This document shows, one piece after another, positions 54,364 through 56,223 of a DNA stretch of 64,000 bases. The stretch is taken from NCBI GenBank assembly GCA_004298155.1, contig SCRD01000008.1:310001-374000 (forward strand). Direction: 5' to 3'. Origin of the DNA: Acidobacteriota bacterium (GTDB lineage Bacteria; Acidobacteriota; Terriglobia; UBA7540). Under the pieces are notes generated by a model. That model worked only from the letters and a program-made list of their open reading frames with translations. It did not search any database and was not told the origin of the DNA. The number at the start of each line of letters is the position of its first letter. The stretch's first letter is position 1. A program made the position numbers and the translations under genes.

Positions 54364-55110
54364 ATGGCTGACCCCTATCTGAGCATTGTGGTCCCCGCAT
54401 TTAACGAAGCATCGCGGGTGGGAAACACCCTTGCGGAAGTGCAGAAGTACTGCGCAACAAAGCCTTTTGAGGTCGAGGTGGTGTTGGTGGACGACGGGTC
54501 AAGCGATCGCACATTGGATCTCTTCAAGGAGTTTCGAGCCCTTCGGCCGGGGACCCGAGTGCTTTGTAATCAGGCTAACCGCGGGAAGGGGTTCAGCGTG
54601 CGGCGTGGCGTTCTGGAATCACGCGGCAGCGTTGTCCTTTTCACAGATGCCGATCTTTCTGCGCCAATAGAAGAAGCGGACAAACTGCTTGCAGCGCTTG
54701 AGTCTCAAGCTGCAGATGCTGCCATCGGTTCACGCGCCCTTGACCGGACGCTTATCGGTGTCCGACAGCCCTGGCGCCGGGAATATGCCGGCCGGTTTTT
54801 CAATCTGTTGGTGCGTCTGTTTACGGGCCTGAAGATTCATGACACGCAATGCGGGCTGAAGCTGTTCCGCAGAGAATCTACGCGGCGGGCTTTTGAGTTA
54901 CAACGTGTTGACCGGTTTGGCTTCGATCCAGAGGTCCTTTTCCTCGTCCAACGCCTGGGTGGGAAGATCGTTGAGGTTCCCGTTCGCTGGAATGATAATC
55001 CCGCCACCAAGGTCCACTTTCTTCGTGATTCTGCTCTCATGTTTCTCGATCTTATCGTTCTTCGCTGGCGCGCCTGGGCCGGTTGGAATTCTGCCTCAAA
55101 TTTTCTCTAG
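54364..55110 (+). CDS. Glycosyltransferase family 2, dolichyl-phosphate hexose synthase type
   Basis: A 248-residue soluble GT-A enzyme. Motifs: LSIVVPAFNEASRVGNTLAE, VVLVDDGSSDRTLDLFKEF, FTDADLSAPIEEADKLLAAL (DAD), and HDTQCGLKLFRRESTRRAFE followed by DRFGFDPEVLFL. This is the pattern of polyprenyl/dolichyl-phosphate beta-glucosyl- or mannosyl-transferases, which make lipid-linked monosaccharide donors. No membrane helices at the C-terminus. Confidence 0.88.
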   Translation: MADPYLSIVVPAFNEASRVGNTLAEVQKYCATKPFEVEVVLVDDGSSDRTLDLFKEFRALRPGTRVLCNQANRGKGFSVRRGVLESRGSVVLFTDADLSAPIEEADKLLAALESQAADAAIGSRALDRTLIGVRQPWRREYAGRFFNLLVRLFTGLKIHDTQCGLKLFRRESTRRAFELQRVDRFGFDPEVLFLVQRLGGKIVEVPVRWNDNPATKVHFLRDSALMFLDLIVLRWRAWAGWNSASNFL

Positions 55111-55128
55111 CCGTCTCAGCTTTTTTTA

Positions 55129-55157
55129 TTGACTAAGGCGCCACAGCCTCTTAATAT
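55129..55157 (+). promoter_or_regulatory. Near-consensus sigma70 promoter of the 55.2-kb small RNA
   Basis: TTGACT (55129-55134), exactly 17 nt, TAATAT (55152-55157). Predicted start near 55164. It lies 18 bases after the preceding stop and has no protein gene of normal size downstream on its strand before the terminator. Confidence 0.65.
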
Positions 55158-55185
55158 CGGAATCACGCTAGAAAGGAGGTGATCC

Positions 55186-55227
55186 ATGCAAATTGAAAGT
55201 AACTGTAGCGAGGGTGCTGAGGCTTAG
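55186..55227 (+). CDS. 13-codon ORF behind an ideal ribosome binding site
   Basis: ATG 55186 to TAG 55227 reads MQIESNCSEGAEA. The AGGAGG is 6 nt upstream within a 15-nt perfect anti-16S match, the strongest Shine-Dalgarno in the window. The peptide is acidic and has one Cys. The stop overlaps the first base of the predicted outer stem, so ribosomes finishing the ORF would disturb that fold. It may be a leader peptide, a micro-protein, or only a ribosome-docking site. Confidence 0.45.
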   Translation: MQIESNCSEGAEA

Positions 55228-55343
55228 GCGCTCGCTGGTGCTTGTTTGTAGGACCTCTCACTAGCTAAGAGAGGATTAAAGGCACGGCGCTGTGAGCGCC
55301 AGTTCCCTGGATTTTTGGGAAGCCAATCCAAATCAGTATCCGG

Positions 55344-55381
55344 CCCCTGGTCTTGTCAGCGAAACAAGGCCAGGGGTTTTT
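55344..55381 (+). terminator. Intrinsic terminator of the small RNA
   Basis: CCCCTGGTCTTG (55344-55355) pairs with CAAGGCCAGGGG (55365-55376), 12 bp with one T/G wobble, loop of 9 nt, then TTTTT (55377-55381). It is the clearest terminator in the window. Confidence 0.85.
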
Positions 55382-55442
55382 AACTTTCCGCCGGTTTGCA
55401 GAGAACCATGCTGGTTTGGGGGATGCACTGGTGAGAATGGGG

Positions 55443-55898
55443 CTATCGATGGCTGCGCTTCGGACGTTGGCGCCTTCGTACCCACTCGAAAGCGTCTGCG
55501 ATGACTGCGGTGGCTTTGGGAGTTATTTTGTAGCGCGAGATATCCTTGCGCTCAACCCACCGTGCGTCCAGGACGTCGCTTCCCGGCTTTAACTGGCCTC
55601 CTGACGAACGGCAGACATAATCGATAATGACGTAATGGTATCTTACCCGGCTGCCATTTTTCTGGACTCGATCAACCACGGCAATCGATTCAAGGGGACG
55701 GACCCTTAAGCCCGTCTCTTCCAAGACTTCCCGCCTCACCCCGTCCGCAAGGCTTTCTCCCAGCTCGAGCATTCCCCCAGGGATGGACCATTCGCCTTTT
55801 AGAGGCTCAGTTCCCCGTTGAATTAGTAACACGCAACTGCCACGGATGACTACGCCACCGACACCCACAATGGGGTGGCTGGGATATTCACGTTTCAT
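55443..55898 (-). CDS. NUDIX hydrolase
   Basis: A 151-residue pyrophosphohydrolase. The Nudix box reads GGMLELGESLADGVRREV followed by LEETGL, matching GX5EX7REUXEEXGU. The N-terminal PIVGVGGVVIRGSCVLLIQR and later DVLDARWVERKDISRYKITP are typical of ADP-ribose or nucleoside-diphosphate hydrolases; substrate unknown. ATG 55898 has GGAG 6 nt upstream and is preferred over the GTG at 55910. Convergent with the small RNA. Confidence 0.9.
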   Translation of the reverse strand: MKREYPSHPIVGVGGVVIRGSCVLLIQRGTEPLKGEWSIPGGMLELGESLADGVRREVLEETGLRVRPLESIAVVDRVQKNGSRVRYHYVIIDYVCRSSGGQLKPGSDVLDARWVERKDISRYKITPKATAVIADAFEWVRRRQRPKRSHR

Positions 55899-56223
55899 GC
55901 CGGACTCCACGCCGCCCTTCTTACGGATTGAAAGTAAATTATACGCAGCAAAGCTTGTTTGACCTAATTGTCGAACCCGGGGATACCTTCAAACAGAACC
56001 CAGACGTTGCCAAACCTAGCCACAAAATTCTATGACATTCCGCGCATCTGGAGGTTATTAGATTTTGAGGAGGTCGAGGAGTCATGCAGAGGGAGGTATT
56101 TCGAATCCAGTTCTTGCGGCGAAAATGCGGCGAAGAAATCTTCCGGGACCCGTCAGTTGTGATGGCTGATTGCCCGGAAGCTGTTCAAAAGCAAAGACCA
56201 GGGGACATGCCCGGACAATTATC

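Follow-up and report, generated by a model that had tools for sequence, protein, structure and literature searches.

Several bacterial small RNAs contain a short open reading frame (ORF) that is translated, and dual-function sRNAs or trans-acting leader RNAs such as SgrS and PhrS belong to this group. In the available parts of the literature, rnTrpL and Spot 42 likewise combine a small RNA with translation of a short ORF. The element described here resembles them, in that its own ORF is predicted to be translated.

Two Rfam families also bear on the element. In M. abscessus and M. smegmatis, ribosome reads fall on homologues of Ms_IGR-5 (RF02471) and on other sRNAs too, according to the accessible sections of one study (PMC4974804). 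In excerpts of two further papers, one S. avermitilis sRNA transcription unit out of 139 is a match to Ms_IGR-5 (PMC8780764) and RNA-seq supports Ms_IGR-5 in S. lividans (PMC8079986). According to the accessible portions of two papers, a candidate in Mesorhizobium huakuii carries the name of the second family, CC2171 (RF01867) (PMC5596092), and Rfam 15 added one covarying pair to this family (PMC11701678).

A free-standing element in Acidobacteriota

The element lies in a 64,000-nucleotide stretch of Acidobacteriota DNA (contig SCRD01000008.1), referred to here as the window. Its parts, in window coordinates, are as follows.

55129-55381, + strand: whole element, promoter to terminator T-run (sequence inspection; homologues in related genomes)
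55129-55157, + strand: sigma-70-type promoter TTGACT-N17-TAATAT (recurs in 41 of 48 distinct loci)
55129-55134 and 55152-55157, + strand: TTGACT and TAATAT, separated by a 17-nt spacer (9 of 12 matches)
55165-55185, + strand: 5' box ACGCTAG-AAAGGAGGTGATCC, including the extended Shine-Dalgarno (SD) sequence (genome pattern search; alignment A2, which used 59 of 74 listed segments)
55171-55185, + strand: SD stretch GAAAGGAGGTGATCC
55186-55227, + strand: micro-ORF MQIESNCSEGAEA, then stop (frame kept in relatives)
55186-55188 and 55225-55227, + strand: ATG and TAG of this ORF, which has 13 codons
55212-55225, + strand: 5' arm of helix P1 (GGGTGCTGA, then GGCTT), within the ORF end (predicted fold; arm comparisons)
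55254-55274, + strand: hairpin CCTCTC...GAGAGG, first named in the initial annotation (predicted fold)
55320-55341, + strand: conserved 3' box AAGCCAATCCAAATCAGTATCC with the 3' arm of P1 (relatives' sequences; arm comparisons)
55342-55381, + strand: intrinsic-terminator-like hairpin and T-run (stem 55342-55378)

An initial annotation of this DNA had proposed a promoter, a 15-nt SD, a 13-codon ORF and a terminator, and all of these are present. The terminator differs in size, given that the stem at 55342-55378 has 15 pairs with G-T allowed rather than the 12 bp first claimed. The motifs from which alternative pairings had been drawn (GGCGCTC at 55227, GGCGCT at 55286, AGCGCC ending at 55300, CCTCTC at 55254 and GAGAGG at 55269) are also found. 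Promoter-like sites of the quality seen here occur twice in 701 bases, compared with 0.3 times in shuffles, and a promoter score of at least 9 of 12 is reached in 41 of the 48 distinct Acidobacteriota and Entotheonella loci, compared with about 3% of mononucleotide shuffles. The RNA from 55164 to 55383 folds with a z score of -4.68, and none of 200 shuffles folds equally well. A pattern search of the 5.2-Mb genome finds AAGGAGGTGATCC just twice, in the window element and at locus L032, which looks like the antisense strand of the 16S 3' end and has 17 nt (TAGAAAGGAGGTGATCC) in common with the element. The original observation is confirmed, in that the parts are present and go beyond chance. 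No tRNA or tmRNA was found in the window.

The element is free-standing, as had been argued when it was set apart from ordinary attenuators. The next downstream ORF of at least 80 amino acids (55443-55910) is on the opposite (-) strand. No co-directional downstream gene recurs within about 1.5 kb in 33 related loci, and no co-directional downstream ORF of at least 100 amino acids recurs in 26 of 32 Actinomycetota loci, those that could be oriented by script; the commonest downstream neighbour in Actinomycetota is a DNA-ligase-like ORF on the opposite strand. The co-directional controlled gene that characterizes attenuators and leader peptides is not found downstream. The window ORF at 55443-55910 is of NUDIX type, and 16 of the 33 related loci also have a NUDIX-type gene, which in 15 cases lies downstream and on the opposite strand; the recurrence of this gene across families of the class may reflect positional orthology or a chance neighbour.

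Within the window, every Rfam family stays below its cut-off. Three weak families are listed for positions 55000-55500 when E values up to 10 are allowed; two of them (Ms_IGR-5 and CC2171) overlap the SD, and neither Acido-1 nor Acido-Lenti-1 is among the three. The match to Ms_IGR-5 is full-length and scores 19.0 bits where 45 are required (E 0.031 in 501 bases), and a search of the whole source genome with RF02471 returns nothing at E 0.001 or less. The initial annotation had allowed that a known Rfam class might account for the element; Ms_IGR-5 is a sub-threshold match, to a family without an explanatory function.

Relatives and the reading frame

Homologues in related genomes had been expected, and they were found. 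By DNA similarity the element is present in 29 of 61 genomes, comprising 27 of 37 from the same family (its own included) and 2 of 24 others. R1, a sequence-only model of the 5' module, matches 90 of 151 genomes of the class, in 51 of 72 genera, and 88 of the 90 have a single match; R1 was built on the ORF region and may therefore favour similar layouts. A scan with one degenerate pattern gave 114 stretches, of which 80 were listed with titles. A regular expression applied to the translations of all 114 places 46 in a type with an EV or EG end, 30 in an "MS" type (SD, start codon, then TGTC or TGTT) and 38 among others or chance matches. By record titles, the EV/EG type occurs in Terriglobia, Blastocatellia, gp4, Chloracidobacterium and Candidatus Entotheonella. 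R1 also matches 76 of 149 Actinomycetota genomes, with 62 (manual count) reaching beyond the SD, and 4 of 121 Gemmatimonadota genomes, all as fragments over the SD only. One exact pattern had no match among viral sequences in IMG/VR.

In L086 (Phycisphaerales), L095 (Thermoleophilia), and L037 and L078 (both Gemmatimonadetes), an extended SD is followed by a short ORF with no clear EV ending, and L086 and L095 have a terminator-like hairpin too. These loci are possible further lineages of the element. The element in L054, a record titled Frankia sp. RB7, resembles those of Bradyrhizobium, and the record may be mislabelled or contaminated.

The reading frame was compared in 74 distinct cores, which were chosen by requiring the ORF end and stop codon but not an open frame upstream. 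The EV frame is open in all 74, compared with 32 and 4 for the other two frames (L113 was mis-extracted). A start codon lies near the SD in 72 cores; it is ATG, GTG or TTG in 65 and ATG in 42. In a held-out set of 40 class genomes matched by R1 and unused before, the EV frame is open with an ATG in 40 of 40, and each of the other frames in 1 of 40. The frame of the ORF in the initial annotation is kept. In the first set the ORFs are 11-19 codons long. Serine is frequent in their N-terminal part, which varies in length and sequence and whose codons have a mild excess of synonymous differences (0.33 versus 0.21, from pairs that are not independent), which leaves room for a peptide function. Among 117 ORFs the E, which extraction demanded, is invariant and the next residue is V or G, with EG replacing EV in the window's family.

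The search with RF02471 was extended to 17 genomes from the scan. In the Entotheonella genome the element is the best match, at E 0.0013 (place checked), and a Streptomyces locus is matched at 8.8e-17. Weak matches (E 0.03-0.23) lie away from such elements in several genomes, and matches at E up to 10 occur in 6 of 14 control genomes, so the Entotheonella value is modest alone and the shared anatomy is the stronger basis for the link. The RNAs have the same order of parts, an SD box, an ORF ending EV(A/T)xx-stop, the P1 arms and an AAUCC box before a hairpin; an order that we defined (SD, EV-type ORF, P1 arms, 3' box, terminator) is found in both, with EG rather than EV in the window's family. 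The Ms_IGR-5-type RNA of Streptomyces encodes MSETRTREVAAG, followed by a stop. RF02471 matches 31 of 149 Actinomycetota genomes, and 29 of 30 fetched loci were analysed (L185 repeats the core of L184). The EV frame is open in 29 of 29, with a start codon in 28 (ATG, GTG, TTG, CTG, ATC or ATT) and none in L182. By these comparisons Ms_IGR-5 is taken as a real distant homologue of the window element. The family, followed through the scan and Ms_IGR-5, extends to Blastocatellia, Entotheonella and Actinomycetota, with a shared ORF end that is mostly (R/S)EV(A/T)xx-stop.

Helix P1 and other candidate folds

In the predicted fold of the window element, GGGTGCTGA-GGCTT (55212-55225), at the end of the ORF, pairs with AAGCC...TCAGTATCC (55320-55341). 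A fold involving the ORF had been anticipated by the initial annotation, and in this respect it is borne out: both arms of P1 can be named in 75 of 79 loci (lost in L009, L012, L113 and L155). The 31 3' arms of Actinomycetota and Entotheonella together were placed by eye from the motif AAUCC...ACC and the rest by regular expression; L008, L021, L030-L032, L036, other second copies, and L196 (near a contig end) were left out beforehand. Swapping of 3' arms weakens the mean pairing from -13.0 to -9.0 kcal/mol. The observed sum is reached in 0 of 20,000 permutations for all 57 distinct pairs and for the 27 Actinomycetota pairs, in 15 for the 13 pairs of the window's family and in 118 for the 16 pairs of other Acidobacteriota, statistics that ignore the relatedness of the loci. 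With 15 held-out loci added, arm positions 1-8 are paired in 65-67 of 67 distinct arm pairs, counts that use optimal duplexes and have the swap test as their control. Changes on both sides occur at arm positions 3, 4, 5, 7 and 9.

In only 40 of 75 loci does the ORF end pair better with the 3' box than with any other segment. It was located by regular expression in only 15 of 40 held-out loci, and the pairing is weak in two of the 15. The predicted probability of P1 is moderate, at 0.60 in the window's family, 0.43 in Actinomycetota, 0.24 in other Acidobacteriota and 0.15 in held-out loci, with 0.55 in a further group, and the Rfam consensus of Ms_IGR-5 (CS line) leaves the box before the terminator unpaired. 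As judged by arm comparison, the conserved helix is P1 and not the fold first proposed. The finding is more widespread than had been supposed, and the original folding story is wrong in detail.

In that story, CCTCTC paired with the SD to gate translation. Sequestration of the SD by CCTCTC or any downstream anti-SD was rejected for the window's family, where no more than 1 of 25 loci has a downstream partner for the SD that outdoes 95% of shuffles. Such partners are found in 11 of 21 loci of other Acidobacteriota, 8 of 30 of Actinomycetota, 6 of 37 held-out loci and 0 of 2 of Entotheonella, and sequestration may be real outside the window's family. The proposal of a translated ORF gated by folding therefore stands in part: the free-standing arrangement, homologues, frame and ORF-involving fold are retained, and the CCTCTC/SD gate is not. 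Two other candidates were rejected. A loop contact between GCUAG of the 5' box and a CUAGC hairpin loop has a constant 5' side, and CUAGC is missing, by eye, in at least L018, L020, L023, L025 and L026. The other candidate was closure of the SD by a ribosome positioned on the stop codon, for which the energy model gives only a small change in SD accessibility.

In the Actinomycetota loci L180, L199, L307, L315 and L323, a literal mimic of the 16S 3' tail (GGACCACCTCC in L180, L315 and L323; otherwise GGATCACCTCC or TCACCTCCTT) lies between the stop codon and the 3' box and is complementary to the SD of the same RNA. In some lineages this internal mimic could hide the SD.

Possible functions and comparison with known RNAs

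Sequence comparison demonstrates the conservation of the element and its reading frame, co-variation in P1, and retention of promoter, SD and terminator with no shared downstream gene. The reading put forward here, which we judge about equally likely to be right or wrong, is that the element is a translated, free-standing riboregulator in which a long-range helix would exclude the ribosome from the ORF end. A single-copy, free-standing RNA gene would produce a transcript of about 220 nt starting just upstream of the SD, and the SD, complementary to the entire 3' tail of 16S rRNA, would recruit ribosomes strongly. The RNA would be a tiny mRNA, with an ORF of about 11-19 codons translated by these ribosomes. 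The last codons would double as the 5' arm of P1, with the box directly before the terminator as partner, and P1 and a ribosome at the ORF end would therefore be mutually exclusive. The act of translation, more than the peptide, would decide the conformer, with either P1 closed or the 3' box free, and ribosome availability would act on the stability or trans-activity of the RNA via the conformer that accumulates. Transcription and translation in the source species, the switch, the opening of P1 by translation and the trans output are what we infer from these patterns of conservation.

Given a strict frame, a loosely kept peptide and a conserved end that also pairs, the act of translation is favoured over the peptide with moderate confidence. 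The element could instead be a small mRNA whose functional product is the micropeptide, with P1 and the terminator only stabilizing the message. The kept frame, the V or G that follows the extraction-required E in the 117 ORFs and the mild synonymous excess are consistent with this. However, the N-terminal part varies in length and sequence, the conserved end is a P1 arm as well, and the window's family, with G in place of V, still has P1; we consider a peptide product unlikely, if still worth serious attention. A decoy, in which the SD holds 30S subunits or ribosomes as a sponge or parking RNA and the short ORF is a by-product, would fit an extended SD that is unique in the genome besides the 16S antisense, as well as the CTG, ATC or ATT that is the best start in a few relatives. 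A decoy has no need of a frame, yet the frame is kept, and the start is ATG in 42 of the 74 cores and all 40 held-out loci, which makes this improbable. Poorer still are the prospects of an ordinary base-pairing sRNA that acts via its 3' box or hairpin loops and whose ORF is incidental: the free-standing arrangement with a terminator and the GCCAAUCC-type box kept beside it are as expected, but the frame is conserved over three phyla. A leader or attenuator for a downstream gene, although suggested by the short ORF, alternative stems and terminator, is very improbable, given that the next gene is on the other strand and that no co-directional downstream gene recurs in the 33 related or 26 Actinomycetota loci.

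CC2171 matches the window at 14.2 bits against a cut-off of 75 and has no match in the source genome, with Caulobacter as positive control. RF01867 lands on SD elements in 8 loci searched: Brevundimonas (98.7 bits), a Hyphomicrobiales MAG (76.9), L119 (64.6), Allosphingosinicella (53.9), Rhodobacter sp. (44.3), a Rhodobiaceae MAG (34), Bradyrhizobium (32) and Rhodobacter maris (28.7, E 0.034), of which only the first two pass the cut-off. Within the class Alphaproteobacteria it matches 39 of 190 genomes, 8 of them over the cut-off. Of 30 alphaproteobacterial loci, 28 have an SD and an 18-35-codon ORF that starts with ATG or GTG, and in 27 of these the ORF begins with MS; of the other two, L266 was put in the wrong place by the script and L291 was read from an incorrect start. 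The ORF frame in Alphaproteobacteria is not longer than the others (737, 859 and 1455 codons summed), and so no frame selection is seen. Codons 2-6 of CC2171-type loci pair with a pre-terminator segment, as CAUUGUC:GACAAUG in many. The swap test gives -7.4 versus -4.3 (0 of 20,000; 23 distinct pairs), with 9 of 33 loci dropped and automatic 3' arms that look misplaced in L048, L269, L270, L272 and L275. The ORF of the alphaproteobacterial L294 ends EVTC-stop, and several actinobacterial ORFs end EVTGC-stop; L294 may link CC2171 with the EV family.

Tentatively, the RNAs of Acidobacteriota, Entotheonella, Actinomycetota (Ms_IGR-5) and Alphaproteobacteria (CC2171) might all be versions of one ancient, stand-alone ribosome-sensor RNA, in which a long SD loads a micro-ORF and a helix between ORF and 3' box reports ribosome availability in trans. 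The unlisted acidobacterial RNA has a conserved micro-ORF and a conserved helix in common with an Rfam sRNA family whose consensus lacks that helix, and a second Rfam family has a similar plan. No report of the micro-ORF or of P1, in Ms_IGR-5 or in the element, was found in the accessible portions of the open-access literature. Databases list the distant relatives as non-coding RNAs only, and a widespread link between the ribosome and a small RNA may have been overlooked. The function of the RNA can be approached in tractable hosts such as Streptomyces, M. smegmatis and Caulobacter. If the translation-gated reading is true, the state of an RNA would be tied to ribosome supply, with no downstream gene involved, by a device of wide distribution.

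Compared with Ms_IGR-5, whose Rfam type is sRNA gene, the window element falls below the covariance-model cut-off. With CC2171 it has in common a short leader, GAAAGGAGGUGAUCC, a short ORF and a helix between ORF codons and a pre-terminator segment; CC2171 has another ORF and another helix, near the start codon. The plan is similar, and any common descent is conjectural. As for the translated ORF of dual-function sRNAs, sequence comparison finds the frame conserved across relatives. In contrast to SgrS, PhrS, Spot 42 and rnTrpL, the end of the window ORF would itself be a structural arm, and no operon follows.
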